Of a stretch of DNA of 34,136 nucleotides, positions 3,530 to 32,415 are shown one piece after another. Position numbers and translations under genes: made by a program. How positions within the stretch are numbered: position 1 is the first letter of the stretch; each line of letters opens with the position of its first letter. Source of the DNA: Hydrogenophilales bacterium (lineage in GTDB: Bacteria > Pseudomonadota > Gammaproteobacteria > Burkholderiales > Thiobacillaceae); NCBI GenBank assembly GCA_024636775.1, contig JAGXGP010000159.1, forward strand, positions 1 to 34,136, read 5' to 3'. The notes under the pieces are model-generated. The model did no database searches. It was not told the origin of the DNA and was given only the letters and a program-made list of their open reading frames with translations.

Positions 3530-4774
3530 ATGAAGCAACCCGTCAAAATGCCCACGCTTTCCGACACCATGGAGAGCGGACGCCTGCTGCGCTGGCTGAA
3601 GCAGCCGGGCGATGCCGTGAAAAAGGGGGACGCCGTTGCCGAAGTCGAGACCGACAAGGCGGTGATGGAGATGGAGGCGTTTCATTCGGGAACGCTGATC
3701 GGACCGCTGGCGGAAGAGGACAAGGAATATCCGGTGGGCGAGACGCTGGCCTGGATCGGCGACGAGCAGAGCGGAGAAGCCGAAGCGAAGAAGGGACACG
3801 CACCGGCCAGACAAGACGACAAGGCGGTAGGCGAGCACAAGGCTGCAGAAGAACCGCAGCAGCCCGCAGCGGACGAAACGCAGACAGCGCGCCCGATCGA
3901 TCCCCGCACGACCGAAAAGAAAGCAGCGCATCACGCCGAGCCGGCTGCCGCTGAGGCCGAAACCAAAACCGAAAAAACCGGTACACGCGAGCCGGAAACG
4001 GGTACGCAAACCGCCAGGACCGGAAAGGGTGCGGCGCATGGTGCAGCCAGTGCCGTTCTGGAACAGGCGCTGGCGGGAAGATCTGCGCGTCCCCGCCGTG
4101 AGGAAGCGGATGCTGGCGCGGCGCTGCGGAAGGAGATCGAGTCCGGACCGCCGTATCGAATCGAACCCGCGTTACATCTGCGCCAGGTCATCGCCGTAAC
4201 GGTGAGCCATGCGGCGCAAACGCCACAGTTCCGCATCAGCATGCTGCTCGACCTGGGGGCCTTCAAGGCATCCGCGGACGAACACGATGGCTCTTTCACG
4301 CTGCTGCTCGCCAAGGCCTGCGCGATGACCCTGAACAGTTTTCCCGATTTCAATGCTGCCTGGACGCAGGAGGGCCTCGCCCGCCGCGAGCGGGTCGACG
4401 TGGCGATCGCCATGGAAGCGGAGAACGGATTGCTCACGCCAGTGGTGCGCGACGTTGCCGGACGGTCCTTGTCTGATCTGGCCGAAGCGTGGAATGTGCT
4501 CAAACAAAAAATCAGTCAGCACCGCACCGCGCCTGAAGACTTTCGCGGCGCGACCTTTTACCTGTCCAACCTGGGCATGTTCCCGGGAATCGTGCAGTTC
4601 GATGCCATCGTGCCGCCGGGGGCTACAGCGATCCTGGCCGTCGCATCGCCCGGGGAGAAAGGCACCATGCTGACCCTGACCTGCGACCATCGCGTGGTGT
4701 TCGGTGCCGACGCTGCCCGCTTCCTGGCTGCGCTGGCCGAGAAATTGACGCATCCCGACTTTGGGCCGGCATAG
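3530..4774 (+). CDS. Dihydrolipoamide acyltransferase (E2) with one lipoyl domain and atypical active site
   Basis: E2 carries the swinging lipoyl arm and transfers acetyl groups to CoA. Residues 1-80 are a lipoyl domain with the modified lysine in EVETDKAVMEMEAF. Residues 85-165 form a long charged linker rich in Ala, Glu, Lys and Thr. From about residue 210 to the end is the catalytic domain (TPQFRISM, LSNLGMFPGIVQFDAIVPPG). I cannot find the peripheral subunit-binding domain that normally sits between them and docks E1 or E3. The catalytic HxxxDG motif reads DHRVVFGADAARF: the histidine is kept, but the aspartate position is Phe. From memory, plastid and cyanobacterial E2 proteins have an aromatic there (HRVIYG). 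No lipoamide dehydrogenase gene follows. A decayed copy of this gene's 3' end lies at 7372-7560. It is the last gene of the operon. Confidence 0.88.
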   Translation: MKQPVKMPTLSDTMESGRLLRWLKQPGDAVKKGDAVAEVETDKAVMEMEAFHSGTLIGPLAEEDKEYPVGETLAWIGDEQSGEAEAKKGHAPARQDDKAVGEHKAAEEPQQPAADETQTARPIDPRTTEKKAAHHAEPAAAEAETKTEKTGTREPETGTQTARTGKGAAHGAASAVLEQALAGRSARPRREEADAGAALRKEIESGPPYRIEPALHLRQVIAVTVSHAAQTPQFRISMLLDLGAFKASADEHDGSFTLLLAKACAMTLNSFPDFNAAWTQEGLARRERVDVAIAMEAENGLLTPVVRDVAGRSLSDLAEAWNVLKQKISQHRTAPEDFRGATFYLSNLGMFPGIVQFDAIVPPGATAILAVASPGEKGTMLTLTCDHRVVFGADAARFLAALAEKLTHPDFGPA

Positions 4775-7054: not shown

Positions 7055-7255
7055 TCAACTTATCCTGACAGGTTTGTGCCGGTTCAGGATTTCCACAATC
7101 TCGGGCTTGGTCGTCTCGGGAATAATGACTTTTATCTGCCTGGCCTGCTCGTCGACGAAGATTTTTTCGCTGGGAATGCCCGACGCCAGCAAGTCGTCCT
7201 CGACATTCCGGATTTGGTCGGTTGAATCGTAGATCCCAGTCACTGTTGCAGTCAT
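7055..7255 (-). CDS. Small conserved hypothetical protein, 66 residues
   Basis: The gene is short but has a near-consensus ribosome site (AAGGAGG) with ideal spacing before the ATG on the minus strand. The protein begins TVTGIYDSTDQIRNVEDDL, continues with ASGIPSEKIFVDE, and ends in IIPETTKPEIVEILNRHKPV. This beta-alpha-beta pattern, with a short motif about moving between two residues and a 'GIP' turn, resembles the small half-domain of general-stress-type proteins (the 17M/YflT-like fold). I recall similar unnamed proteins in sulfur-oxidising betaproteobacteria. It looks intact, unlike all its neighbours in this decayed stretch. Function is unknown. Confidence 0.7.
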   Translation of the reverse strand: MTATVTGIYDSTDQIRNVEDDLLASGIPSEKIFVDEQARQIKVIIPETTKPEIVEILNRHKPVRIS

Positions 7256-7371
7256 GCTTGGCCTCCTTCATGTTTGAGTGGGTATTACAAGACATCCTGA
7301 TTTCATCTTAGCCAATTAATGAACAGTTATCGGGAACAGCGCCATGTGAGCCGATTGCATCTATCTTGAAG

Positions 7372-7560
7372 CATGGTTAGGGGAATCGTGCAATTCGATG
7401 CCATCGTGCCCCCGGGCCTTGCCGCAATCCTGGCTTTCGCCTCACCCGGGGAGAAGGGCACCAGCTGACCCTGACCTGTGATCACAGTGTGGTGTTCTGC
7501 GCCGACGCTGCCCGCTTTCTGGGTGCACTGGCCGATCGCTTGGCCGATCCTGCCGCAAGA
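7372..7560 (+). pseudogene. Decayed second copy of the E2 acyltransferase 3' end
   Basis: The DNA closely matches the 3' end of the E2 gene at about 4577-4765. Shared words include GGGAATCGTGCA, TTCGATGCCATCGTGCC, CCCGGGGAGAA and GCCGACGCTGCCCGCTT. The encoded pieces read GIVQFDAIVPPG, ASPGEKGT, then after a frame change DHSVVFCADAARFLGALADRL. A one-base loss near 7465 (ACCAGCTGACC against ACCATGCTGACC) breaks the frame, and the active-site arginine is now Ser. The aromatic residue replacing the catalytic aspartate is present in both copies. No upstream E2 sequence remains. This is the relic of a paralogous or duplicated dehydrogenase locus. Confidence 0.85.
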
Positions 7561-7625
7561 ACAAACGATTTAACATGCCGGTCAGGCGTGTCATACCAGC
7601 ATGAATGGAAAAGCCTTATACATGA

Positions 7626-7751
7626 ATGGATGTCCACCCCGACAAGCATCAAAGCCTCCCTGAGCGTCTGATAAAGGCGGCTGAAATTGAAATGGGCCGC
7701 ATCAATCTAGCTTTTCAAATACTCCAGCGTGCTTCTGCGGAAGAGTTTTAG
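7626..7751 (+). pseudogene. J-domain (DnaJ-like) 3' fragment
   Basis: A 42-codon frame not listed in the ORF track begins MDVHPDKHQSLPERL, continues KAAEIEMGRINLAFQIL, and ends in TAG at 7749-7751. HPD followed by K is the hallmark of J-domains. The following helix pattern (AE.EM.RIN.AF.IL) is the helix III consensus that normally reads roughly FKEINEAYEVL. Helices I and II before HPD are missing, because an in-frame stop precedes the ATG. It is therefore taken as the remnant of a DnaJ-family protein whose 5' end was deleted. It directly follows the E2 relic. Confidence 0.45.
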
Positions 7752-8055
7752 GGTATTAACGCGTGTGAGGTGGAACAGGCGCCATAATCTTCGGGCGTGT
7801 GGCCCGAACCCAAGTGCTTTTCCGCAAATCCATTGACCATGCCGCGAAGCGCAACGCCTCGTCAGTTTGTAAGCCAGTGGCACAAGGTCACCTCATATCA
7901 CTAGGAAAATTACGTCAGAGGCCTCGAGTCGATTACCTCAAGACTTCCTTAATGGAATGGCGACCCGAGATAGGGTTACCAGAATTTCTAGGGTGGTTAC
8001 TGAAATTCCTTTGTCCCGACAACACCTCACAACAGGGGTCACTCGTAAAATAACT

Positions 8056-8083
8056 ATTTAACATAATATACATTATGCGAATT
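8056..8083 (-). other. dif: dif site: XerC/XerD chromosome dimer resolution site
   Basis: Read on the minus strand, the 28-mer consists of an 11-base XerC arm AATTCGCATAA, a 6-base centre TGTATA, and an 11-base XerD arm TTATGTTAAAT. The centre and XerD arm are identical to E. coli dif. The XerC arm keeps the inner CGCATAA and differs from E. coli only in the outer bases (GGTG becomes AATT). As I recall it, this is the form seen in Neisseria (AGTTCGCATAA). XerC and XerD bind the two arms and, activated by FtsK at the septum, resolve chromosome dimers. The site marks the replication terminus. It lies in a gene-free, decayed stretch, as is usual. Confidence 0.93.
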
Positions 8084-8133
8084 CGATAAGATAAGTCGGC
8101 AAGAATTGCCCGCGCCAAATGTTGGAACAGGAA

Positions 8134-8190
8134 CAACCTGCCAACTAACAACTTAAGGTTGCCAAACATCACAAGTGCAACCTGCCAACT
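8134..8190. repeat. Short direct repeat CAACCTGCCAACT near dif
   Basis: The 13-mer CAACCTGCCAACT occurs at 8134-8146 and again at 8178-8190, 44 bases apart start to start. Between them lies AAGGTTGCC, which is partly the inverse of the repeat (AACCT/AGGTT). The pair is about 50 bases to the right of dif. It could be binding sites for a terminus protein or a deletion scar; the sequence alone does not tell. Confidence 0.6.
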
Positions 8191-8474
8191 CAGACTTCGT
8201 TAAAACAATAACTTACAGAGCGTTAACTCACGACGTTTTGAACCGGCCAATGTGGGTCGGGCTGCCAAGCCTGCACTATTAATGCTGCTGAGTTAATTTA
8301 AGGCGAATCGATATGATCATGGATGACGAGGGAAGATTTAATTCAAATTGCGATTTCACTAGACCGATGGCACACGGGATTAATTTTGATCGCTAACTAT
8401 TTGATTCTTCAAGGTTGCGATTGGGTGCGTGTAGAGGTACCTTCACTTCTTTAACATCAACTATCGGATAAGCC

Positions 8475-8858
8475 ATGAACCTTGAGAAGGTCGTGTTTGG
8501 TTTTTTCATCATCCTGGCGATGACCCTCAACTTCGGCTTCGTTCTCGGCGATCTCGACAATCCGGCGCATCACCATGTGTATGAGTTATTTTTCGCCATC
8601 ATCGTCAATCTCATTGCCACGGTGCTCAAGTTTGGCGAACGCACACAGATTGGTGCCATTCACCTGGCCAGCAGTCTGGTGGCCGATCTGGGGCTTCTGG
8701 CCGCCGCCTGGGTCTGGGCCTCGGCCGTCTATATCAATGGCACGGGCCTCACGCCAGATGTCACTGCCAGCATTGTTTCACTGGCCGCCGGCGCCCTGGC
8801 CGCCAACATTCTGTCGGTCGTCATGCTGCTGATCGAAACCGTAATGTTCCGGCGCTGA
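8475..8858 (+). CDS. DUF6394-like four-helix membrane protein paired with a K+ channel
   Basis: This 127-residue protein is almost entirely hydrophobic. Helices are visible at VFGFFIILAMTLNFGFVLG, YELFFAIIVNLIATVL, LASSLVADLGLLAAAWVWAS and SIVSLAAGALAANILSVVMLL. The polar loop LDNPAHHHVYE sits between the first two. It resembles the small membrane proteins annotated DUF6394, which I recall lying directly upstream of RCK-domain channels. The stop is followed immediately by the start of such a channel (one base between), so the two are co-transcribed and probably translationally coupled. It may be an accessory subunit of that channel. That role is inferred from position only. Confidence 0.75.
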   Translation: MNLEKVVFGFFIILAMTLNFGFVLGDLDNPAHHHVYELFFAIIVNLIATVLKFGERTQIGAIHLASSLVADLGLLAAAWVWASAVYINGTGLTPDVTASIVSLAAGALAANILSVVMLLIETVMFRR

Positions 8859-8859
8859 A

Positions 8860-10584
8860 ATGCACAACACGTTGTTCCTGATTCTGCGGCGCATGCGTGT
8901 GCCGCTGATTTTCCTGATCCTCAGCTATGCCATTTCCATCCTTGGCATGACCCTGATCCCCGGGGTCGATGCACAAGGGCGGGACGCGCCCCCCATGGGC
9001 TTTTTTCATGCCTTTTATGTCGTGAGTTTTACCGCCACCACCATCGGTTTCGGCGAACTGCCCGGTACCTTCAGCGAAGCCCAGCGCGCATGGATTACCG
9101 CCACGATTTACATGACGGTCATCGTCTGGCTCTACAGCATTGGCTCCATCCTGAAACTGTTGCAGGATCCAGCGCTCATACGCGCGGCCAAGGGCAACCG
9201 GTTTGCAGCCAAGGTCAAGCACTTGCGCCAGCCTTTTTATCTGATCGCAGGGTGTGGCGAGACGGGGGCGCTGCTGATGCACGCCCTGGACAGTCGTAAC
9301 CAGCAGGCGGTGATATTGGACATCGACCCGGATCGGGTTGGCACACTGGAACTGGGTCAATACCAGTGGGACATCCCTGCTTTCACTGCCGATGTCAGCC
9401 TGCCTGAAAACCTGCTTACGGCGGGTCTGAATCATCCACATTGTGCGGGCGTCATCGCGCTCACCAATGATGATCGCGCCAATCTGAGTGTGGCGGTCAC
9501 CACCAAGCTGCTGCGCCCGGAACTGCCAGTCCTGTGTCGGGCTGACTCCCTGGAAACGGCGGCCAACATGGCCTCGTTCGGCACCGATGAAGTGGTCGTC
9601 GCGTTCGAGGTTTTTGGCGAGCACCTGGCCAAGGCGGTCAATACCCCGGGCCACCACCTGCTTTACGAATGGCTGACCAGCGTTCCCGGTGACCCGCTCG
9701 TCGAACCACTGGAGCCACCTCGGGGCAAGTGGGTGTTATGTGTTTACGGCCGTTTCGGCAAGGCCATCGCCCATCACCTGAAACGGGCCGGCATCGAACT
9801 GGTGGTGGTAGAGGCAGCCCCGGACAAGACTGACTGTGACAACTGCATCATCGGCAACGGTACCGAAGCGCGCACCCTGATGGAAGCCGGCATCGACGAG
9901 GCGGTGGGCATCGTCGCGGGCACCGACGACGATATCAACAACTTGTCGATCGCCATGACCGCGCGTGAACTCAATCCAAAACTTTTCACGGTATTGCGCC
10001 AGAATCGCCATGCCAACGCGCAGCTATTTCAGCGCTTTCATGCCAGCGTCACCATGCAGCCTTCCAGCATTGTCGCCCATGAGTTTCTGTCGTTGCTCAC
10101 AACCCCCCTGCTCTCCCGTTTTCTCAACCTGATTCGGGCCCGCGATGATGCCTGGGCCGATGTTTTGATCAGCCGCATCGCCGCTGTGCTTGAAAACTCG
10201 GTGCCTGAAGTGTGGGATGTGGAACTGTCCGGCACCCAAACCGAGGCGTTCTGGGAAGCCATGCGTGATAACACACCGGTTCCCCTGCGAGCACTTGTGC
10301 GCAGCCCTGTCGATCGGGACGAGGAATTGCCCTGCATTCCCCTGCTATTGAAGCGAGGCGAAACCAGCATCCTCTTGCCGGAGCCGGAAACCGTGCTGCA
10401 ACTGGGGGATCATCTGCTGTTCTGCGGCGAGCGACGGGCGCAAAATCTGCAGACCCTGGGCCTCTACAACTTCAATGTACTGAATTATTTGCTCACCGGG
10501 CAGGACGCCCCCGGAGGCAAGGTTTGGCGCTGGATGGAGCAACTAGGGAGAAAAACCCCGGGCGCCAATAGCCCTGGCGCTTAA
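8860..10584 (+). CDS. Two-helix potassium channel with tandem RCK/TrkA-N domains
   Basis: The protein has 574 residues. Helix 1 spans about residues 14-34, and the pore loop with selectivity filter TTIGFGE is at residues 60-66. Helix 2 spans about 82-101 (TATIYMTVIVWLYSIGSIL). A first Rossmann-type RCK/TrkA-N domain begins near residue 125 (LIAGCGETGALLMHAL, with the acidic ILDIDPD strand end). A second begins near 290 (VLCVYGRFGKAIAHHL), where the glycine motif is degenerate. The C-terminal part includes a TrkA-C-like segment ending ETVLQLGDHLLFCG. It is expected to be a ligand-gated inner-membrane K+ channel. The filter GFGE differs from the canonical TVGYG, as in many prokaryotic RCK channels. 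It shares an operon with the DUF6394-like gene. Confidence 0.88.
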   Translation: MHNTLFLILRRMRVPLIFLILSYAISILGMTLIPGVDAQGRDAPPMGFFHAFYVVSFTATTIGFGELPGTFSEAQRAWITATIYMTVIVWLYSIGSILKLLQDPALIRAAKGNRFAAKVKHLRQPFYLIAGCGETGALLMHALDSRNQQAVILDIDPDRVGTLELGQYQWDIPAFTADVSLPENLLTAGLNHPHCAGVIALTNDDRANLSVAVTTKLLRPELPVLCRADSLETAANMASFGTDEVVVAFEVFGEHLAKAVNTPGHHLLYEWLTSVPGDPLVEPLEPPRGKWVLCVYGRFGKAIAHHLKRAGIELVVVEAAPDKTDCDNCIIGNGTEARTLMEAGIDEAVGIVAGTDDDINNLSIAMTARELNPKLFTVLRQNRHANAQLFQRFHASVTMQPSSIVAHEFLSLLTTPLLSRFLNLIRARDDAWADVLISRIAAVLENSVPEVWDVELSGTQTEAFWEAMRDNTPVPLRALVRSPVDRDEELPCIPLLLKRGETSILLPEPETVLQLGDHLLFCGERRAQNLQTLGLYNFNVLNYLLTGQDAPGGKVWRWMEQLGRKTPGANSPGA

Positions 10585-11114
10585 CCTTGAATGCGCTGAA
10601 TCAGGCGGCGGGCATCGATGAACGGATCATTCGGTGAAACTCTTCTCACCCAGGATTTTCAATTTTTGGATTCATTACTTTCCACCCGCAATCCAGATTT
10701 CGAGTGGCTGCCCGATTCACGCCCTTACTCCACGATAAGAACTTGACGACCAAGGCAATGAAACAAAATATCTAATAAGCACCATATCAACAATCAAGTA
10801 TCTGTTTGATTGCAGAAGATTATGTGGGTCAGTGATACTGCCGGATGTGGCTTTACGCCTTCTCGAACTATTCCTTGTCTGCGTGTACTTTTGCTTTTGG
10901 CCATTGGTCCGTTACGGCTCGCCAATTTTCCTGAATTTGTTGTGTGGCCGCACTTTCACGAATTGCAGGAATACCTATTCAGCTCTGTGTGAATAATGGT
11001 ATTGATAGTTGAAAACCTACAGCACGCCTTCAAGTATTGCCCCGAACGGCGTTCGTGCAACAATTCAATGAAAAGCATTGTGCCAAACCTTTTGATTCAC
11101 GAGACAAGCAAAGA
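10585..11114. other. Intergenic region upstream of parE
   Basis: About 530 bases contain no supportable gene. The 60-codon ORF 10810-10992 lacks a ribosome site and any family pattern. The ORF-track start for parE at 11037 lies in this region but reads non-family sequence. The parEC promoter is presumably here. The stretch is AT-richer than the genes around it. Confidence 0.4.
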
Positions 11115-13079
11115 ATGGCCAAGGATTACAACGCAGATTCGATCCAGGTTCTCAAAGGACTTGAACCCGTCAGGGCTCGCCCCGGCATGTACACCCGAAC
11201 CGACAATCCGCTTCATGTCATCCAGGAGGTAATCGATAACTCGGCAGACGAAGCGTTAGCGGGACATGCCACCCGGATCGGTGTCCGATTGTGTGTGGAT
11301 GGTTCGGTCAGGGTCAGCGATGATGGACGCGGCATCCCGGTAGACCTCCATCCTCAAGAAAAAGAGCCCACGGTCGTCGTGGTGCTTACCCGTCTGCATG
11401 CAGGCGGCAAGTTTGACAAGACCTCCGGTGAAGGCGCCTACGCATTCTCGGGTGGTTTGCACGGTGTCGGCGTTTCGGTAACCAACGCCCTTTCCACTCG
11501 TATGGTCGTGACGGTGAAACGTGACGGCGAGATCAACGAGGTTGAGTTTTCGGATGGCGGCAAGGTCAATAAAAAACTCACTGTCATCGGCAAATGTGCC
11601 AAGAAAGACACGGGTACAACGATCCACGTTTGGCCCGACCCAGTCTTTTTTGAATCCGCCAAAATTCCTGATCGTGATCTGGCCCGTCTGTTGCGCGCCA
11701 AGGCTGTGCTGCTGCCAGGGGTAACCTTCCGGCTTGAGATTGAGCGGAACGAAACCGTGGAGGAGCTGATTTACTGCTACCAGGGCGGACTATCCGACTA
11801 CCTGTCAGAGCAGGTTTCTCCAGAGGACGCGCTGGTTCCGATTTTTGCGGGCGAGTCCTACGCGGATGGCAACAACGGATTTGCCAAAGGAGAAGGCGCG
11901 GCATGGGCCGTGACCTGGGCGGAGTCCGGGAGCTTTTCGGAATCCTATGTCAATCTCATTCCGACCTTGCAAGGCGGTACGCATGAGGCAGGCCTGCGTG
12001 CCGGCGTATTCGATGCGGTGAAATCCTTCGCCGAACATCACGCCCTTTTACCGCGCGGTGTGCAACTACGCCAAGAGGATGTCAGCGGGCGCATGTCCTT
12101 TGTCCTGTCTGCACGAATCCTCGACCCGCAGTTTCAGGGACAGGTGAAGGAAAAACTCAACTCCCGCGAGGCCGTAAAGCTCGTATCGACAATGAGCCGC
12201 GATCCTTTCGAGGTTTGGCTCAATGCCCACGTTGAATATGGCAAGGCCATTGCCGAGATGGCGGCCAAGGCGGCAGCGGCCCGACTCAAGTCTGGACAGA
12301 AAACCGAGAAGAGAAAAACTTCCGGAGTGGCCGTGTTGCCCGGCAAGCTCACGGACGCAGCCGCGGATGACCCCGCGGTACGTGAAATTTTCCTGGTGGA
12401 AGGTGATTCCGCCGGCGGCAGCGCAAAGCAGGCACGAGACCGCGAAACGCAGGCCATCCTGCCTTTGCGCGGCAAGGTGATGAATTCATGGGAGACCGAC
12501 CCGAACGCGCTCTACGCCAACAAGGAGATCCACGACATCGCGGTCGCGCTCGGGGTGGAGCGGCATAAGTTGGGCGACCATCCGGACCTCAGCGGCCTGC
12601 GTTACCACAAGGTCGTGATCATGACCGATGCTGACGTCGACGGTGCACACATTTCCACCCTGCTGCTGACCCTCTTCTTCCGACACTTCCCGAAGCTGGT
12701 CGAGTTGGGGCACATCTATGTGGCGCAGCCGCCCCTCTATAGGGTGGACAGCCCGGCCAAAGGCAAGAAACCGGCCCGACGCCAATACGCGCTTGACGCC
12801 GGTGAGTTGACGGCCATCAAGGACCGTCTCCTGCTGGACGGGTTCAAGCCGGAAGCCATCGAGGTCGGCCGCTTCAAGGGCTTGGGTGAGATGAATCCTT
12901 CTCAACTCCGGGAAACCGCCATGGACCCGGCCACCCGACGTGTCCTCCCTGTGCTCGCCACACCCGATGAAATGCAGGAAGCCCTGAAGTTGTTCGACAT
13001 GCTGATGGGCAAGAGCGCAGCCGGTGATCGGCGCGACTGGATGGAAGCGAAGGGCAACCTGGTGGAGGCTGACGTATGA
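11115..13079 (+). CDS. parE: DNA topoisomerase IV subunit B
   Basis: This is the ATPase subunit of topoisomerase IV, which decatenates sister chromosomes. The family start is the ATG at 11115 ([20 protein letters not shown]), giving 654 residues; the track's earlier start adds non-family sequence. The GHKL ATP site is seen in [13 protein letters not shown], the DGRGIPV loop and [14 protein letters not shown]. The TOPRIM metal site appears as [13 protein letters not shown] and [11 protein letters not shown], and [11 protein letters not shown] marks the C-terminal region. It is called ParE and not GyrB because it lacks the long GyrB insertion and is fused in an operon with a ParC-type gene by an ATGA overlap. 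Its position about 3 kb from dif places it in the terminus. Confidence 0.93.
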
Positions 13080-15469
13080 CCAAGGCGGTTGAAATCCATA
13101 CCCTGGACCTCTTCGGGAACCCGGATGTAACGTCTTCCCAGTCCACGCCACCGCAGGTACCGCCCTCCCCACCCTCTTCTGGTGACGGCGGTTTGAGTGA
13201 TGAAGAAGGGCTTCCACTGGGAATTTATGCTGAACGCTGCTACCTCGCCTACGCGATGAGCGTAGTGAAGGGCCGTGCGCTGCCCTACGTCGAGGACGGC
13301 ATGAAGCCCGTTCAGCGCCGCATCCTCTTCTCGATGCGCGAAATGGGCCTGACGTCCAGCACCAAGCACGTCAAATCTGCGCGGGTGGTCGGCGACGTGA
13401 TCGGCAAGCTTCATCCCCACGGAGACCAGTCTGTCTATGACGCCATGGTCCGCATGGCCCAGGGCTTCACCCTGCGCTATCCGCTGATCGACGGCCAGGG
13501 CAACTTCGGGTCGCGCGATGGCGACGGCGCGGCAGCGATGCGCTACACGGAAAGCCGGCTGACCCCGATTGCAGAACTGCTCCTGTCGGAGATCGACATG
13601 GGCACGGTGGACTTCGTACCCAACTACGACGGTGCCTTCAGGGAACCCGCCCTGCTTCCGGCCCGGCTGCCCATGCTCCTGGCCAACGGCGCATCCGGCA
13701 TCGCCGTCGGTATGCGCACCGAAATCCCCTCACATAACCTCCGAGAGCTGGGATCGGCCGCGATCGCCATTCTCAAAAAGCCTGATATCTCACTGGATGG
13801 GGTCTTGCAACATGTTCCAGGCCCTGATTTCCCCGGCGGAGGTCAGATCATCACTTCCGCCATCGATCTTCGCTCGGTGTATGAATCGGGTCGAGGGAGT
13901 GTACGTGTTCGTGCGCGATGGACGGTGGAACAACTTGCACGCAGCCAATGGCGAATCGTTGTCACCGAACTGCCACCTGGAATCTCCACGGCGCAGGTGC
14001 TGACCCAGATCGAGGCACTCGCCAATCCGCAAGCCAAGACCGGCAAGAAGGAGCTGTCGCCGGAACAAAAGAACCTCAAGCAGGCGACCCTCGCCCTCCT
14101 GGATGTCGCACGCGATGAATCGGACGAAGGCAATCCAGTGCGCCTGGTCATGGAGCCCCATTCGCGTAACCAGGATCCCGACGCTTTTATGCGCTTCTTC
14201 CTGGCTCAGACCGGCATGGAAACCAATGTGGCGGTCGACCTGACGGTGGTCGGGCGTGACGGTCGCCCCGGACAAAAAGGGCTAGTGGCGTTGATCGCAG
14301 AATGGGCGGGCTTCCGGGTCGACACGGTGCGCCGTCGCACCCAGTATCGACTCGAAGCAGTGAACCGTCGCGTCCATATCCTGGAAGGACGCCTGACCAT
14401 CCTGCTCAACATCGACGAAGTGATCCGGGTCATTCGAGAGTCGGATAATCCCAAGGTCGACCTGATGGCCGCTTTTGATCTCTCCGAGGTGCAGGCCGAG
14501 GACATCCTGGAGATTCGCCTGCGCCAACTGGCCCGGCTTGAATCCATCAAGATCGAGAAGGAACTGAAGGAACTGCTGGGTGAACGCGGCGAACTCAACC
14601 GCATCCTTGGCGATGGCAATGCCTTGACGTCTCTCGTCATCGACGAGATCCGCGCTGACATGAAAAAATACGGCGATGACCGCCGCACCCGCATCGAGGC
14701 AGCGCAGGCGGTTACCGCTTCAACGACGAGCGAAGAGTCCATCGTGGACGAACCGGTAACCGTCATCGTGTCACTGAATGGCTGGCTTCGCACCCGGCAA
14801 GGCCATGGTGTCGACCGGGGATCCATCCAGTACAAGGCGGGCGATGGAGAAATGGCGGTCATCGAAACCCGGACGGTGAATCCGCTCATCCTCATGGACA
14901 GCCGCGGCCGCACGTATACGCTTCGTATCACCGACTTGCCTTCCGGTCGCGGCGATGGGGTTCCGTTCACCAGTCTCGTTGATCTGGCCAAGAGCGCGAA
15001 GCTGATTCATGCCCTTTCGGCACCGCCAGAATCCCGTTGGCTGGTATCAACCACGTTGGGCTACGGATTCATTGCCAAGTGTGCCGACATGGCGTCCCGG
15101 CAACGGGCTGGCAAAGCATTCATGGTAGTTGAGGAAGATCAAACTCCCCTGCCCCCAGTTCCTACAACAGGCGACTGGGTTGCGGTTGCAGCAAGCAACG
15201 GCAAAGCCCTGGTGTTCCCCATCGATGAAGTCAAGGAAGGCACGGGCGGCAAGGGCGTGCAGCTGATCAAGCTCGACGAAGGCGAAAAGATGATGGCGCT
15301 GACTGTATTCGACGGCCAGACCCTGATGGTGGAAGGCGCCGTAAAGGGAAAACGCAACGCCAAACTGAAACTGTCAGGCGAGAATCTGGAGCGCTACCGG
15401 GTCCACCGAGCGAAGAAAGGCTGCCTCCTGGAGAAAGGGATGGTGGCGAGCAGGCTCTGGACAGATTAA
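13076..15469 (+). CDS. parC: DNA topoisomerase IV subunit A
   Basis: This is the DNA-cleaving subunit, 797 residues. A proline- and serine-rich N-terminal extension of about 45 residues precedes the family core, which starts at [21 protein letters not shown]. The active-site tyrosine is Y157 in AAAMRYTES. The quinolone-determining segment reads [12 protein letters not shown]: the position of E. coli Ser80 is Gln118 and that of Glu84 is Asp122. A GyrA-like coiled-coil segment ([14 protein letters not shown]) and a reduced C-terminal beta-pinwheel follow, without the GyrA box, as expected for ParC. The gene starts within the parE stop (ATGA). On the right of dif it is transcribed away from the terminus. 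Confidence 0.93.
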
Positions 15470-15647
15470 TCCTATCTTTTAGGCTCATCATCCGCCTCCC
15501 GCCGCTGGAGGACATTTTCAGCGGCCACAAATTGCGCCATCCCCTGTAATTAACTAGGCTGAACAAAAACATTCCGAAGAGAGTGTCGCCACGCGAAGCG
15601 CAACCAAGCACGCGTGCCCTACAAATCAGCCAGATGAAAGAGGCGCC

Positions 15648-15974
15648 ATGGCCCTGACCTATTCAACTTCGGCATTGCCGGAGCAACAACGTAGCACTTG
15701 GGTGAACGTCTATCAAAGTGTACGTAAGTGCAGCGAGGAACTCTGTGCACCGTTGTCTCCCGAGGATTACGTGATCCAGACAGTGCCCGAAGCCAGCCGC
15801 AGCCCGCTGGCGTATTACACTGAGCTAACCGCCAGCAGGCGGGTATGCGCATCCATGCAAGCGCCAAGAGCCTGTTCCAGCGACACACCGCGCGTCAAAC
15901 CAACATTCATTGTCGAACTTGATCTCCTCAACCATGGCCTCCTTCATGGTCTCCTTCTGATATTTCTTGATTGA
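15648..15974 (+). pseudogene. egtB-like (ergothioneine-type sulfoxide synthase) N-terminal fragment
   Basis: The ORF begins at ATG after GAAAGAGG. Its first 50 residues include WVNVYQSVRKCSEELCAPLS and PEDYVIQTVPEAS. This is the N-terminal DinB-like helix of EgtB and SenA-type enzymes, which normally continue PxxWHLAHTTWFFE. Here the similarity stops at PEAS (about 15795), and the metal-ligand histidine segment is missing. The rest of the ORF looks like random translation and ends at 15974. No catalytic FGE-like domain follows in any frame. The break coincides with an imperfect palindrome (GCTGGCG and CGCCAGC, about 15812-15841). It is taken as a truncated pseudogene. Confidence 0.6.
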
Positions 15975-16502
15975 AAGTCCAATTTTGGCAAGAGCTTTCG
16001 GCCTGCTTTGGCCGAGCTGCCACACCACAATCGATTTAATCTGTTGCATCCATCAATTGAATCCGCAGTCGAAAGCACGCGTTCGACGTGAACCCTGATC
16101 AGCGCCAGTTCAAGACCATATAGCGGACCCAATTGGCTGAAAATCGCCGGATGATTCGGCCCACTATGGAACGTTCAGCCGATAGCGCTTCGACTTTTTG
16201 CACCTGTACCTTGATCAGCACCCATTCCTGCTCCCAATAAAGACAAACTTTTTCATACGATAAATGGGGTCGGCCAGATGCGTTGTTATCGTTATACGAG
16301 CAAACAAAAATTACGAGGCAGTGCTATGGGTTGTTAACTGACACACCGATGTAACTTCGTAGCACTCATTACGACCAATACACTCTTCGAGTCAGGCAAA
16401 CCAAATAATGACCTTGTCATAAAGGGTTTCTACAATGATGTAATATATTTAACGGCCTATAAAGCCATACAAATTCATAAATTTAGATAGGGAAGCTGCA
16501 TT
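15975..16502. other. Intergenic region upstream of the secretion operon
   Basis: About 530 bases contain no supportable gene on either strand. The minus-strand ORF 15825-16049 is not recognisable. The last 100 bases are clearly AT-rich (TGATGTAATATATTTAAC), and TTGTCA occurs at about 16416. Promoter elements for the gspG operon are likely here, but the spacing between TTGTCA and the nearest TAATAT is too long for a confident sigma-70 call. Confidence 0.4.
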
Positions 16503-16931
16503 ATGTTGTCACCTGTTTTGCTACCCAGCCGTGCCCACGGCTTTACGCTGCTTGAACTATTGGTAGTGTTGGTCATTTTGGGCTTGCTCGCAGGTTATGT
16601 AGCGCCGAAGTACTTTTCGCAGATTGGTAAATCTGAGGTTAAAACGGCACGTGCGCAGGTCATCGCACTGGAAAAAGCACTCGACCAATACCGTATCGAC
16701 ACGGGACATTACCCCAGTAACGAACAGGGACTGACGGCACTGAATGCCAAACCCGCTAATGAGCCTCGCTGGGAAGGCCCCTATCTGAGAAAAGCCGTGC
16801 CTGACGATCCCTGGGGCAAGCCGTATCAATACAGGATGCCGGGTGAACACAGCGAGGTAGACATCTATTCATACGGCCGCGACGGCACCGCCGGCGGCAG
16901 TGATGATGGTGCAGACATCGGAAACTGGTAA
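16503..16931 (+). CDS. gspG: Type II secretion system major pseudopilin
   Basis: This is the major subunit of the periplasmic pseudopilus. The leader MLSPVLLPSRAHG ends in the prepilin-peptidase cleavage site G|FTLLELLVVLVILG, with the conserved glutamate at mature position 5. The C-terminal domain has the GspG hallmarks: TGHYPSNEQGLTAL, GPYLRKAVPDDPWGKPY, and the calcium-site region IYSYGRDGTAGGSDDGADIGNW. At 142 residues the length is standard. It is the first gene of a run of ten co-oriented genes, 12 bases before gspF. No prepilin peptidase gene is present in the window, so one must be encoded elsewhere. Confidence 0.95.
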   Translation: MLSPVLLPSRAHGFTLLELLVVLVILGLLAGYVAPKYFSQIGKSEVKTARAQVIALEKALDQYRIDTGHYPSNEQGLTALNAKPANEPRWEGPYLRKAVPDDPWGKPYQYRMPGEHSEVDIYSYGRDGTAGGSDDGADIGNW

Positions 16932-16943
16932 GCAACCCACTTT

Positions 16944-18128
16944 ATGCGCTATCAGGTAAAAGCCTTACGCCCCGGTGCCGGCATAACCCTACAAATAATG
17001 GAAGCCATCGACGAGACCGAGGCTGCCACGCGACTGCAGCGCGAAGGCGCACAGGTGCTTTCCATTGTTGCGGTACGTCGTGGCTGGCTGACTGCGCGGC
17101 GGACTCGTTTTCCGCTGATGCTCTTCACTCAGGAACTGATCGCACTGCTGGACGCCGGGTTAACCCTGACGGAATCGCTGGAAACGCTGGCCGAAAAAGA
17201 AAGTCGCCCCGAATCACGCCAATTGATTGAACGCCTGCTTGTCGCCATGCGCGAGGGTCGGCCGTTCTCGGCAGCACTGGCTGCACAGGCCGAATCATTT
17301 CCCCCCTTGTATGCCGCAACGGTGCGTGCGGCCGAAAGCACGGGCGACCTTTCGCCAGCACTCGCCCGCTATGTTGGCTATCAAAACCAGATCGATACGG
17401 TGAAGAAAAAAGTCCTGTCAGCGTCAATTTATCCCTTGCTGCTGATTGGCGTGGGCACCTTGGTAATTGGCTTTCTGCTGGGCTATGTGGTGCCGCGTTT
17501 TGCTTCTGTGTATGCCGATGCCGGACGCGATCTGCCCTGGATGTCGCGTGCATTATTAAGCTGGGGTGAGGCGGTGCAGGCACATGGGATGTTGATCGTG
17601 CTTGGGGTGTTTGCGCTCATCATAGGCTTGGCCATTGCGCTTGCACAGCCCTTCACCCGCGCCGCACTCACCCGGCTGGCCTGGCGCACGCCTGGCATTG
17701 GCGAGCACCTGCGCACGTTTGAACTGGCACGGTTTTATCGCAGCATCGGCATGCTGCTTTCAGGCGGCATCCCCATTGTCTCTGCACTCAATATGGTATC
17801 GGGACTGCTATCCGCGCACCTGCGCAGTGGCGCGGGTATCACGATAGAAGCGATGCGTCGGGGTGAAACCATTTCGGCAGCATTTGCCCGCGGCGAATTG
17901 ACTACCCCGGTGGCCGCCCGGTTACTGCGCGTGGGAGAAAAAAGCGGGCGCATGGGTGAGATGATGGACCGCATCGCGATTTTTCACGATGAAGAAATGG
18001 CACGCTGGGTAGACTGGTTCACCCGGCTGTTCGAACCGCTGCTGATGATATTTATCGGTCTGACAATTGGATTGATTGTGGTGCTGCTCTATATGCCGAT
18101 TTTCGAACTCGCGGGATCAATCCAGTGA
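16944..18128 (+). CDS. gspF: Type II secretion system inner-membrane platform protein
   Basis: This is a GspF/PilC-family polytopic protein of 394 residues that anchors the assembly ATPase and pseudopilus. Two repeated cytoplasmic helical domains are visible, with signatures FTQELIALLDAGLTLTESL and ELARFYRSIGMLLSGGIPIV. Membrane helices are at YPLLLIGVGTLVIGFLLGY, MLIVLGVFALIIGLAIAL and LLMIFIGLTIGLIVVLLYM. The C-terminal PIFELAG motif is typical. The gene lies between gspG and gspE and overlaps the latter by four bases (GTGA), so subunits are made in step. GspF and PilC cannot be told apart by sequence alone; the gspG-F-E context favours the secretion branch. Confidence 0.93.
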   Translation: MRYQVKALRPGAGITLQIMEAIDETEAATRLQREGAQVLSIVAVRRGWLTARRTRFPLMLFTQELIALLDAGLTLTESLETLAEKESRPESRQLIERLLVAMREGRPFSAALAAQAESFPPLYAATVRAAESTGDLSPALARYVGYQNQIDTVKKKVLSASIYPLLLIGVGTLVIGFLLGYVVPRFASVYADAGRDLPWMSRALLSWGEAVQAHGMLIVLGVFALIIGLAIALAQPFTRAALTRLAWRTPGIGEHLRTFELARFYRSIGMLLSGGIPIVSALNMVSGLLSAHLRSGAGITIEAMRRGETISAAFARGELTTPVAARLLRVGEKSGRMGEMMDRIAIFHDEEMARWVDWFTRLFEPLLMIFIGLTIGLIVVLLYMPIFELAGSIQ

Positions 18129-19801
18129 ATGCACCCCACGCTACCCTCACCCCGGAAAGTCTGGCCGCGCTGCGCAATGAGGCACGCGCTGCAGGGCAGT
18201 CTGTGGCGCAACGGGTGCAGGAACAATTCGGTCTTGATGCGGAAGCCACGCTGAATCTGTTGGCCACTCACAGCCATCAACCTGCGTTTGACATGGCAGC
18301 ACTGAACGCGCTGACGGTCGATTTCGGCAAGTTGAGCTTCAACGAAGCCGCTCGCCGCCACTGCCTTGCCGCGCGCGACGCCGAAGGCCAGCTCTGGCTG
18401 TTGCTGGCCGATCCGTGGGATAGCGCCGCGCGAGCCTATGCCGCGCATGTGCTGGGCGCACCGTTCAAGCTTGGACTGGCACATCCGGCCGACCTCGCCG
18501 CGCTGATGGCACGGCACGAAGAAGGTTTGCATGCGATGGAGGGGGTCGGTGATGGTGCAACACACGCCACGCTGGATTCCGGCGCTGAGACCTTGTCTTT
18601 TGCCAGCATCGCTGAAGACGCCAGCCCGGTGGTACGGCTGGTGCGCTCCACTTTGTACGATGCCTTGAAAGCGGGAGCATCCGACATTCACCTCGAAACC
18701 GACACGCGTGGCTTAACGGTGAAATACCGCATCGACGGCGTACTTTTGCACATTGCGCAGATACCCGGCGTTGAAACGGCCGAGCAGGCCGTGTCGCGCA
18801 TCAAGGTCATGTCCGAACTCGACATCGCCGAGCGTCGCGTACCGCAGGATGGTCGTTTCAAGGTGGCGATTCAGGGGCGCGAAGTCGATGTACGCGTCTC
18901 CATCATGCCAAGCGTGTTCGGTGAGGATGCCGTGCTGCGCATCCTCGACCGTCAGGCACTCTCGGAAGAATTGAGCGGGCTGACGCTGGAAGGCCTCGGT
19001 TATGCCGGGATCACGCTGGCACGCATCCGCAAGCTGGCCGCCGAGCCCTATGGCATGCTGCTCGTCACCGGGCCCACTGGCTCGGGCAAAACGACCACGC
19101 TGTATGCGGCAATTTCCGAAATAAATCATGGCCGCGACAAGATCATCACCATCGAAGATCCGGTCGAATACCATTTGCCGGGCGTATTACAAATCCCGGT
19201 CAACGAGAAAAAAGGCCTCACCTTTGCGCGCGGTCTGCGCTCGATCCTGCGGCACGATCCAGACAAGATCATGGTGGGTGAAATTCGAGATGCCGACACT
19301 GCGCAAATTGCCGTGCAGTCTGCGCTCACCGGCCACCTGGTGTTCACCACCGTTCACGCCAACAATGTATTTGACGTCATTGGTCGTTTCATCCACATGG
19401 GGGTCGATCCCTATAGTTTCGTCTCGGCATTAAACGGCATTGTCGCGCAGCGGTTGCTGCGGATAAATTGCCCGCAGTGCGCAACAACAATGGTGCCGAC
19501 TGACGAATTGCTGGAATTGTCCGGACTGAACCATGATAAAACCCACGACTACGTATTTCGTCAGGGCAATGGCTGCGGCCATTGCCGCGGCAGCGGCTAC
19601 AAAGGTCGGCGTGCAATCGCCGAGATTCTGTTGCTCACCGACGAATTGCGCGAGCTGATCGTGGCGCGTGCGCCGATCGGGCAAATCAAGGAAGCCGCGA
19701 TACGCGGCGGGACCCGAAATCTGCGCGAAGCGGCGCTTGACCTGGTGAAATCGGGCGACACCACATTGGAGGAAATAAACCGTGTCACTTTGGTCGGCTG
19801 A
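18125..19801 (+). CDS. gspE: Type II secretion / pilus assembly ATPase
   Basis: This is a cytoplasmic hexameric ATPase that powers pseudopilus assembly. It starts with GTG overlapping the gspF stop and has 558 residues. An N-terminal GspE-N-type region is followed by the CTE core (SDIHLETDTRGLTVKYRIDG). Walker A is GPTGSGKTTT near residue 315. The Asp box is IITIEDPVEY, Walker B is IMVGEIRDADT near 380, and the His box is LVFTTVHANN. A tetracysteine zinc module (CPQC and CGHC, about residues 447-485) is present, as in GspE and PilB. The last 20 bases overlap the next gene. All catalytic motifs are intact. Confidence 0.95.
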   Translation: MNAPHATLTPESLAALRNEARAAGQSVAQRVQEQFGLDAEATLNLLATHSHQPAFDMAALNALTVDFGKLSFNEAARRHCLAARDAEGQLWLLLADPWDSAARAYAAHVLGAPFKLGLAHPADLAALMARHEEGLHAMEGVGDGATHATLDSGAETLSFASIAEDASPVVRLVRSTLYDALKAGASDIHLETDTRGLTVKYRIDGVLLHIAQIPGVETAEQAVSRIKVMSELDIAERRVPQDGRFKVAIQGREVDVRVSIMPSVFGEDAVLRILDRQALSEELSGLTLEGLGYAGITLARIRKLAAEPYGMLLVTGPTGSGKTTTLYAAISEINHGRDKIITIEDPVEYHLPGVLQIPVNEKKGLTFARGLRSILRHDPDKIMVGEIRDADTAQIAVQSALTGHLVFTTVHANNVFDVIGRFIHMGVDPYSFVSALNGIVAQRLLRINCPQCATTMVPTDELLELSGLNHDKTHDYVFRQGNGCGHCRGSGYKGRRAIAEILLLTDELRELIVARAPIGQIKEAAIRGGTRNLREAALDLVKSGDTTLEEINRVTLVG

Positions 19802-20549
19802 AACACTGCGTATCGCACTCGCGCCTGGCGAAGTTGCGCTACTGCGCACAAGTGGCAAACCCGCCAGTCGCATCCTCACAACGGACGAACGCAGTGCGGC
19901 AAGCTTGCTGCTCCTGCTGGATGAGGCCCTGTCCGATCCCGCGTGGCACAGTCGCCGGGTTGAGGTCGTACTGTCGCAGCACTTTGTGCGCCATGTGCTC
20001 ACTCCGTCCCCTGGCAAGACACTTTCGCGTGTTGAAGAACAGGCCCTGGTGGCTGCCAGCCTGCGCGAGATATATGGTGAAGAAGCCAGTCACTGGCGGA
20101 TTCAGGTGATGAGCCAGCCACCCCAGCATGGGCTGATGGGTGCAGCAGTCGACGAATCGTTCGCGCAGCAACTGGATGCGCTGTTGGCGCGTCATGGCTG
20201 TCGTGATGTGACGATCAATCCGCTTGTCAGCGTGGCTGCCCGTCGCCTGCCGAAAAGCTTTCAGGGATGGTGGGTGTTGGCCGAGCCGGGTTGGTTGAGC
20301 CTGTTTGGCAAGGCAAACGGGGCCTGGCAGCACTGCGCCGGACAACCGATTGATGACAGCTGGGCCGCATCCCTGCCAGAACTGATCGAGCGCGAAGCCG
20401 GTTTAAAACCATCACCCCTGCCTGCTTCAGTATGGGTTCAGGCATTGGGCATCGGCGCGGTTTCAGCACCCTCACCCAATAACGGTGATTGGCGTATGTT
20501 GCCGCAAAAAAGTCCTTCCCATGGCACTCTGGCCCTGGCGGAGCTATAA
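19782..20549 (+). CDS. PilM/GspL-like cytoplasmic assembly protein
   Basis: This 255-residue protein starts with GTG after GGAGGAAAT inside the gspE end. It shows an actin-like-fold flavour of PilM or the cytoplasmic half of GspL: an N-terminal strand pair, VEVVLSQHFVRHVLTPSP, and a QALVAASLREIYGE helix. No membrane helix is evident, so it resembles PilM more than full-length GspL. It is immediately followed by PilN-like and PilO-like genes, the order seen in pilMNOP clusters. ATP-binding motifs of true PilM are not obvious. The family call therefore rests partly on context. It is expected to link the ATPase and platform to the PilN-like inner-membrane partner. Confidence 0.6.
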   Translation: MSLWSAETLRIALAPGEVALLRTSGKPASRILTTDERSAASLLLLLDEALSDPAWHSRRVEVVLSQHFVRHVLTPSPGKTLSRVEEQALVAASLREIYGEEASHWRIQVMSQPPQHGLMGAAVDESFAQQLDALLARHGCRDVTINPLVSVAARRLPKSFQGWWVLAEPGWLSLFGKANGAWQHCAGQPIDDSWAASLPELIEREAGLKPSPLPASVWVQALGIGAVSAPSPNNGDWRMLPQKSPSHGTLALAEL

Positions 20550-20551
20550 CC

Positions 20552-21067
20552 ATGGCGCAGCTTGATTTTGATTTTCACGCACGGCCTGCCACCCCATTCA
20601 AACTGGGCATCGCCTTGGCGATTGTCGGGGCGACCTCACTGATTTGGGTCTGGAGCAATTTACAGGCGGCGCGTGCAAGCGAAGCCGGGCTGGCCGCACA
20701 TATTGCCAACCTTGAGCAAACCCGGCCACACAAAATAGCCCAACCCACCGTGCCTGCCGAGAATCCCGGCCAGGTCACGCAGGCTCATGTCGCGTCACAA
20801 ATGGAATATTCCTGGGAACCCGCATTCGCTGCGTTGGCCGCCGCACGCAGCAGCAAGATTGCATTGGTTTCACTGGAAGCATCGCAAGCCAAATCGCAAA
20901 TCAAGCTGGTGGTTGAATCACGACATCTGGCCGATGCCGTGACTTATATCAATGCACTCCAGCAACAACCCGGGGTCAAGCGTGCCGCGCTCGTCCAGCA
21001 CGAAGTGCGGATGGAGGATACGCAAAAGCCGGTGCGCTTCAACGTCGTGGTGGAGTTGGGCACATGA
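20552..21067 (+). CDS. PilN-like bitopic inner-membrane protein
   Basis: I place the start at ATG 20552 (MAQLDFDFHARPA), two bases after the preceding stop, instead of the track's 20489. The 171-residue protein has a short cytoplasmic N-terminus and one membrane helix (LGIALAIVGATSLIWVW, about residues 19-35). A coiled-coil-like stretch and a periplasmic ferredoxin-like domain follow, containing SKIALVSLEAS and DAVTYINALQQQPGVKRAALVQHE. This topology is that of PilN or the membrane-proximal half of GspL. The N-terminal motif that PilN uses to bind PilM is not clearly visible. It overlaps the PilO-like gene by ATGA. Confidence 0.65.
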   Translation: MAQLDFDFHARPATPFKLGIALAIVGATSLIWVWSNLQAARASEAGLAAHIANLEQTRPHKIAQPTVPAENPGQVTQAHVASQMEYSWEPAFAALAAARSSKIALVSLEASQAKSQIKLVVESRHLADAVTYINALQQQPGVKRAALVQHEVRMEDTQKPVRFNVVVELGT

Positions 21068-21594
21068 ATACGCTTTGGTGGCACATCAATCAATGGGCAC
21101 GGCGTATCGGCGGTGCCGGGCTGGCCGGGATGGGTCTGCTGATCGCCGCACTGCTGCTGCAGTTGACCCAGGTCGAACCCACACAGCGTGCTGCCCTGGC
21201 ACAACGCGACAAGCTGGCCCAGTTGCAGTTGGAGGCGGCTTCGCAAGACGCGGTCCCTGCCCCGGTTCCGTTCAATCCATTGGCAATGTTGCCGCCAACC
21301 GGCGAGGCTGCGCAACTGATTGGCGAACTGGAGCGCATGGCACAGGTACATGGTTTGGAACTCCCACGCGGCCAATACAGCGTCACCCCGCTCACCGCCA
21401 CTTCGCTACTTCGCTGGCAGCTTGTATTGCCGGTTGAAGCGTCTTATCCGGCTTTGCATGCTTTTATTGCAACCGCGCTTGAACGCCTGCCCAACCTGAC
21501 GCTGGATGAGTTGAAACTTAAACGCGAACGCATTGAAGACGAAGCACTGCAGGCCGAGTTACGCCTGAGCTTTTTTGTGGAGACGGCGCCATGA
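21064..21594 (+). CDS. PilO/GspM-like inner-membrane protein
   Basis: The 176-residue protein has a single N-terminal membrane helix (GAGLAGMGLLIAALLLQL, about residues 17-34). A helix-rich linker (RAALAQRDKLAQLQLEAA) and a ferredoxin-like periplasmic domain follow (LRWQLVLPVEASYPALHAFI). This is the standard layout of PilO and GspM, which heterodimerise with PilN and GspL respectively. The gene lies between the PilN-like and PilP-like genes, with ATGA overlaps at both ends. The assignment to the PilO/GspM family is fair. Which branch it belongs to cannot be told by eye. Confidence 0.65.
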   Translation: MNTLWWHINQWARRIGGAGLAGMGLLIAALLLQLTQVEPTQRAALAQRDKLAQLQLEAASQDAVPAPVPFNPLAMLPPTGEAAQLIGELERMAQVHGLELPRGQYSVTPLTATSLLRWQLVLPVEASYPALHAFIATALERLPNLTLDELKLKRERIEDEALQAELRLSFFVETAP

Positions 21595-22112
21595 CTGACA
21601 AACAACGCCGTATTTTCCTGTTTCTGGCACTGGCCGGGGTGGGGGCATGGTCCGTCTGGTTGGCAAGTAACGAATCCTCTGACGAAGCCAATGGCAGTCC
21701 GGGCCAAGTGGCCGAACCCAGTGTTCGCAAAAACGCGTCTGCTCCTGTGGCGAGCATCTCTGACCCCATTCTGACCCCAGCCAAGACGCAGGAAATCCAG
21801 CCGCGGCTGGCGCTCGCACGCGCCAACCTGTTCCCCGAGCAGACCTGGTTCATTCCCCCGCCGCCGCCCCCACCGCCGCCACCTTATGTCGCCCCACCGC
21901 CGCAAGCCCCTGCCCTGCCTTTCGGCTACATGGGGCGTTGGCAGGAAGCCAATCAGACGACGTATTACCTGGAACGCGGTACGCTTCCGATAAGTGTCCG
22001 ACCCGGCCAAGTGCTGGATGGGGTGTGGCGGCTTGAACCCGTGACCGGTGGCGTCCTGAATTTCACCTATTTACCGCTGAACCAAACGCGCAGTTTGCGC
22101 ACAGGAGATTGA
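21591..22112 (+). CDS. PilP/GspC-like periplasmic coupling protein with polyproline hinge
   Basis: The 173-residue protein has one N-terminal membrane anchor (RIFLFLALAGVGAWSVWLA), a disordered segment of about 60 residues, and a run of ten prolines (WFIPPPPPPPPPPYVAPPP). It ends in a small beta-rich domain (FGYMGRWQEANQTTYYLERG, ISVRPGQVLDGVWRLEPV). The C-terminal domain follows the homology-region pattern of PilP and GspC, which connects the inner-membrane complex to the secretin. It is not a lipoprotein, unlike classical PilP, which makes it GspC-like in anchoring. The next gene is the secretin itself, which supports the role. Confidence 0.68.
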   Translation: MTDKQRRIFLFLALAGVGAWSVWLASNESSDEANGSPGQVAEPSVRKNASAPVASISDPILTPAKTQEIQPRLALARANLFPEQTWFIPPPPPPPPPPYVAPPPQAPALPFGYMGRWQEANQTTYYLERGTLPISVRPGQVLDGVWRLEPVTGGVLNFTYLPLNQTRSLRTGD

Positions 22113-22113
22113 G

Positions 22114-32117: not shown

Positions 32118-32415
32118 AATTGGTAAAACATCAATACCTGAATGTCGTTGTCAAGCACAACATTTATTCAATTAAATGCGTGCAGTGCCGATGACTAGAT
32201 AAGGCGCAACTGAAAACAGCTGTCCTGGATAGGTAGGTAAATATGAGTGCTGTCGTGCGTATAGGGTATGGCGGAGAGGGTGTCTGCCTCCGCCATGTTT
32301 CATATCGTCTCAACCAATCTCATAAGTCATTGTAGTACGCTGTATTTAGACGTATTTCGTCAAATATGTTGTTTCATTTCGCCTCACGAATTATCATCAA
32401 ATCTTACTCAAATTG
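32118..32415. other. Intergenic region upstream of the integrase
   Basis: About 300 bases contain no supportable gene. The GC-rich inverted repeat at 32268-32296 (see separate entry) lies in an otherwise AT-rich segment, as expected for an attachment region. TTGTAGTACGCTGTATTTAGA near 32333 is AT-rich, but I do not call a promoter. Confidence 0.4.
32268..32296. repeat. Inverted repeat with tRNA-Ser 3'-end-like sequence, candidate attachment site
   Basis: A perfect 9-base inverted repeat ATGGCGGAG/CTCCGCCAT surrounds an 11-base loop. The left arm and loop, TGGCGGAGAGGGTG (32269-32282), is the reverse complement of CACCCTCTCCGCCA. That is the form of the T-stem end, acceptor stem and CCA of bacterial serine tRNAs. 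tRNA 3' ends are common att cores for integrases of the type encoded 120 bases to the right. No complete tRNA is present here. Confidence 0.5.

Follow-up and report, generated by a model that had tools for sequence, protein, structure and literature searches.

The dif site and its surroundings

The window, the whole stretch of DNA analysed (34,136 nucleotides), is all of contig C65 of a draft genome of 2,806,840 bases in 159 contigs (87.4% complete). A 28-bp dif site lies on its minus strand at 8056-8083, with the sequence AATTCGCATAATGTATATTATGTTAAAT. It has the layout of chromosomal dif, in which two 11-bp Xer arms flank a 6-bp centre: the XerD arm is at 8056-8066, the centre at 8067-8072 and the XerC arm at 8073-8083 (AATTCGCATAA TGTATA TTATGTTAAAT). 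Identity with E. coli dif is 25/28. The alignment agrees with a sequence-only reading of this DNA, in which the XerD arm and the TGTATA centre were said to be identical to E. coli dif and the XerC arm to be common to both over the inner seven bases; T3 is shared as well. The published dif of Thiobacillus denitrificans differs from the window dif at one base (27/28; PMC2731167, table).

Genes that are intact around dif include pdh, BrkB-like, DUF6394, TrkA-N, parEC and type II secretion genes, among others, where the names pdh, parEC and type II secretion come from reading the translations by eye. No RNA families or tRNAs were found in the window. From 7256 to 8474, about 1.2 kb, there are relics and no intact gene. 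Among these is a frameshifted 3' end of pdhC (7371-7563, plus strand), located between dif and the yihY/BrkB-like gene and 75-82% identical to 4575-4755; it is a partial direct duplicate, 2.8 kb downstream of the intact pdhC. The flanking genes are open, namely a 66-aa ORF (7055-7255, minus strand) and, on the XerC side, the DUF6394 gene (8475-8858) followed by a gene for a TrkA-N, ion-channel-like protein (8860-10584), both intact on the plus strand. The description of this region as a gene-free stretch between decayed genes is therefore right for 7256-8474 and its pdhC relic, but not for the genes on either side. The additional proposal, that dif explains a relaxed gene content around it, is not supported: the gene content is ordinary, and relics are confined to the ~1.2 kb. 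A decayed transposon, missed by the sequence-only reading, is the better explanation for this relic-bearing stretch beside dif.

Topoisomerase IV genes, parE and parC, are found 3 kb from dif (11037-15469, plus strand). Their linkage to dif recurs in G059, the one exception to an absence of conserved gene order beside dif among 20 relatives. A close relative of parC is found in about 11 of 56 Thiobacillus genomes, while in most of the others, the complete G053 and G058 among them, the only match is a GyrA-like protein, which suggests that topoisomerase IV is patchy across the genus. The nearest parC relatives are from MAGs, mostly labelled Thiobacillus or Hydrogenophilales. Near the contig end there is a P4-type phage integrase gene with arm-binding, central and catalytic domains (32413-33642). 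An inverted repeat, GGCAA-TTC-TTGCC (8098-8110), ends 14 bp outside the XerC arm. Such a repeat (GGCAnnnnnTGCC or GGAAnnnnnTTCC) is present at this distance in 8/30 non-island dif sites (the window, G053, G054, G058, G079, G082, G083 and G084), with an apparent compensatory change between G054 and G079.

Placement at the chromosome terminus

In the entire 2.81-Mb draft genome there is one match to dif with up to three mismatches, making it a single-copy site. At the same threshold, the reversed control pattern has no match in the draft genome, and dif has none in 100 dinucleotide shuffles of the window. Genes for XerC, XerD and an FtsK-gamma domain are present, all above curated cut-offs (NCBI's for XerC and XerD). 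Within the contig, GC skew is +0.043 to the left of dif and -0.034 to the right, a contrast matched by 0/5000 permutations of 500-base blocks, and the best split point is at 6.5 kb, 1.5 kb from dif. This skew switch is local to the contig, and the genome-wide extremum is taken from a relative only, the genome itself being a 159-contig draft. The sequence-only reading spoke of a skew minimum; this depends on sign convention, and with G minus C the terminus is a maximum. In the complete relative G053 (2,909,809 bp), dif is at 1,430,772, that is 1.4308 of 2.9098 Mb. For T. denitrificans, dif has been published at 1,430,783 and the skew maximum at 1,440,104 (PMC2731167), the latter 9.3 kb from the G053 dif.

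All seven KOPS (GGGNAGGG) in the contig are directed towards dif: one to the left on the plus strand (1585-1592), and six to the right on the minus strand (13163-24043, with starts at 13163, 15147, 21255, 21908, 24015 and 24036). Across 46 related genomes, KOPS lying up to 10 kb from dif number 133 pointing towards it versus 10 away. The skew switch, the converging KOPS, the single copy and the Xer and FtsK partners thus identify the site as chromosomal dif, and together with the position of dif in G053 they support the proposal that it marks the chromosome terminus.

In the genus, dif is also joined to other elements. In about one third of the dif sites examined, an XerC arm of the form TATGCACATAA is joined to a highly conserved island end (L217, L216, L218, L219, L245, L252-L258, L292, L294, L295 and L299). 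The XerC side of this class is ~95-97% identical between genomes over up to 6 kb or more (shorter at contig ends), and TraD and MobH relaxase genes are carried where the locus has enough flank, so that the island resembles the gonococcal genetic island. In G061, the stretch L207:5071-6980 on the XerC side of dif holds an inovirus-type replication gene of the II/X family and a small gene that overlaps dif at its 3' end. The TraD/MobH island and the inovirus-type genes at dif are known kinds of dif exploitation.

The presence of such genes at dif in relatives, and of exact 26-mers in 62 viral contigs, raises the alternative that the window 28-mer is not the resident dif but a mimic that arrived with a phage or island exploiting Xer (IMEX). 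This is very improbable, as the site is the single copy in the genome and coincides with the switch in skew and KOPS direction, dif in the window has no phage or island gene next to it, and the XerC arm is of the resident type, not the island type TATGCACATAA. Chromosomal housekeeping genes on the contig likewise argue against a plasmid or phage carrying a mimic site, and the genome search revealed no better dif elsewhere; these were the two findings that the sequence-only reading had named as refuting it. The site shares with the proteobacterial dif described in T. denitrificans (Carnoy and Roten 2009, PMC2731167) 27/28 bases, single copy, the skew switch and XerC/XerD/FtsK, with no difference of substance, and is another member of that group. 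The window 28-mer is thus an ordinary chromosomal dif and already-known biology. It is presumably active in vivo, where FtsK, guided by the converging KOPS, would bring XerC and XerD to dif for the resolution of chromosome dimers.

Transposon ends at a fixed distance from dif

On the XerD side, a 34-bp spacer (8022-8055, minus strand) separates the XerD arm from a degenerate terminal repeat of a Tn7-like transposon, TGTCGGGACAAAGGAATTTCAGTAAC (7996-8021, minus strand), which points away from dif and agrees with the end consensus at 23/24 scored positions. Two TnsB-site-like repeats are seen on the same strand: an outer one, GGAATTTCAGTAACC (7995-8009), and an inner one, GAAATTCTGGTAACC (7974-7988), 21 bp (two helical turns) from it. 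The whole degenerate end covers 7974-8021, 34 bp outside the XerD arm, and its terminal repeat plus a further TnsB-type site place it, by sequence likeness, with Tn7-like elements. A search of the window found no right end, no target-site duplication and no transposition gene. For this reason it is, judged by its sequence, a scar, the worn left end of a former Tn7-like insertion. Elsewhere in this genome, on a contig without dif (L268, C62:12687), there is another end-like sequence of this transposon family.

In an alignment of 31 dif flanks, several genomes with unrelated spacers have TGTCG...GTAAC in common, which starts about 34 bp beyond the XerD arm and is succeeded by a second repeat; the window spacer, too, is unrelated in sequence to those at other occupied sites. 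The 24-position end consensus was scored over 120 offsets beside each of 46 dif sites. Eight of these score at least 19/24, all on the XerD side and in the same orientation, with gaps to dif of 33 bp (two sites), 34 bp (three) and 35 bp (three); the scores are partly circular, the consensus having been built from occupied sites, while distance, side and orientation are outside the consensus. No end with at least 19/24 was found on the XerC side of the 46 sites, and in 2000 random stretches of the same DNA the score was never above 18. In a ninth case, G067, the end is at a gap of 34 bp and the contig is cut inside dif. Both end patterns were also followed across the genus, where most copies are in dif-anchored elements; exceptions include G068 and contig C62 of the window's own genome.

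A general preference of transposons for the replication terminus, rather than for dif, is known in kind from Tn7, where TnsE prefers replication-termination features (review PMC11406308). As an account of these ends it is scarcely credible, since every high-scoring site has its end 33-35 bp from dif, on one side and in one orientation, which is more precise than a preference for a region would give.

A complete element is seen in G058 (complete genome). It runs for 33,636 bp, from the left end at 1418654 to the last base of an inverted copy at 1452289; the element is 35 bp from dif, with a 5-bp target duplication, GCTGC, on both sides. Domain matches identify TniB/TnsC, TniQ and Mu-transpos_C (TnsB-type) genes, and there is a TnsA-like gene with a weak match (24.5 bits). 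The cargo comprises a type I restriction system, AbiE and a CBASS cyclase with phospholipase effector. An IS21-type origin of the ends, the first guess, was dropped because this element holds TniB/TniQ genes. The TnsB coding sequence appears to be broken over two frames, and thus the G058 copy may be inactive. The full gene set is found in G058 only among genomes of the family. Another pair of end-like sequences comes directly after the element, which gives the appearance of older insertions displaced outward. Inserts are seen in other relatives. The G079 insert measures about 3.8 kb and has a direct repeat, CGCGAA, on either side. Four relatives (G075, G082, G106 and G052) have unoccupied sites that match the spacer of G064, and the G064 insert starts with a restriction gene that is near-identical, by eye, to that of G058.

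These inserts bear on a rival account, in which dif is ordinary and 7974-8021 is not a transposon end but a chromosomal accessory (protein-binding) site of dif. The stretch does recur in several genomes with its distance from dif unchanged. Most dif sites in the genus, however, do not have it. In G058 and G079 it forms the boundary of inserts that have direct repeats, inserts ranging from 142 bp to 33.6 kb carry inverted copies of it at their far end, and one insert has TnsC- and TniQ-type genes. An accessory site is therefore unlikely. A functional Thiobacillus dif adjoined by the worn left end of a Tn7-like transposon, with elements of the genus using dif as their landing site, has a high probability.

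For wider occurrence, 399 genomes of the order were searched with a pattern of dif arm + 31-37 bp + TGTCG. It matched only the window and two doubtful sites, of which the one inspected is without further repeats, and little came up outside Thiobacillus. No full-length homologues of the G058 TniQ were found in the family, in 369 class genomes or in plasmids. As the G058 TniQ is without full-length relatives in the sets searched, the range of dif-directed elements is narrow so far.

Dif as a probable target of Tn7-like elements

The occupied sites point, through their sequences, to dif-directed Tn7-like transposition. Since the spacers are unrelated, it should be dif, or something bound there, that is recognised. 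Tn7 offers a parallel, in that TnsD binds glmS and insertion follows at a fixed distance, while res hunters require resolvase on res. A Tn7-like group whose TniQ-type selector recognises dif or dif-bound XerD, with the window as one scar, is probable. As to mechanism, the likeliest is that TniQ would read dif, or XerD on dif, and recruit TnsC and TnsAB. Elements with TnsABC, a TniQ-type selector and defence genes would then insert 33-35 bp away from the XerD arm, always the same way round, and insertion there would leave dif undamaged. Newer elements would push older ones outward, and deletions would leave scars like the window copy.

With Tn7 and Tn7-like elements are shared TnsA-, TnsB-, TnsC- and TniQ-type genes, a 5-bp duplication, repeated end sites, defence cargo, and a fixed distance and orientation relative to the target. 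The target itself differs, being dif here, whereas those named in the papers cited are glmS, yhiN, comM, parE, tRNA genes and plasmid resolution sites (PMC8649781, PMC10293859, PMC11406308). The words dif, XerC and XerD are absent from the text of the surveys PMC8649781 and PMC10293859. No published dif-directed Tn7-like element was found in a search that mostly excluded subscription journals, so this absence is not proof. A landing site 33-35 bp from dif for a Tn7-like insertion is thus one that we could not find described, and is the new part of the finding.

The Tn5053/Tn402 "res site hunters" also insert beside a site-specific recombination site with TniA/TniB/TniQ-type proteins. Their targets are serine-resolvase res sites of plasmids, whereas here the target is a chromosomal tyrosine-recombinase site, and the G058 element differs in having a TnsA-like gene and no resolvase noted among its ORFs. 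Membership of the Tn5053 res site hunters, which insert beside serine-resolvase res, was rejected, as the target is dif. For IMEX phages and the gonococcal genetic island, dif is likewise a site to exploit, but as the attachment site within which they integrate by XerCD recombination, whereas the present element transposes 33-35 bp outside it with target duplication.

On its own, dif only places the contig at the terminus. Dif-directed insertion, if true, would be a new class of target for Tn7-like elements and would give them a safe place to land at the terminus, one of a kind present in most bacterial chromosomes. It would tie tyrosine-recombinase sites to TniQ targeting, as the res hunters tie serine-resolvase sites, and make testable the question of whether TniQ reads dif DNA or the XerCD-dif complex. 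It would also help to explain the fast turnover of dif flanks, with a defence island parked beside the site of chromosome dimer resolution.
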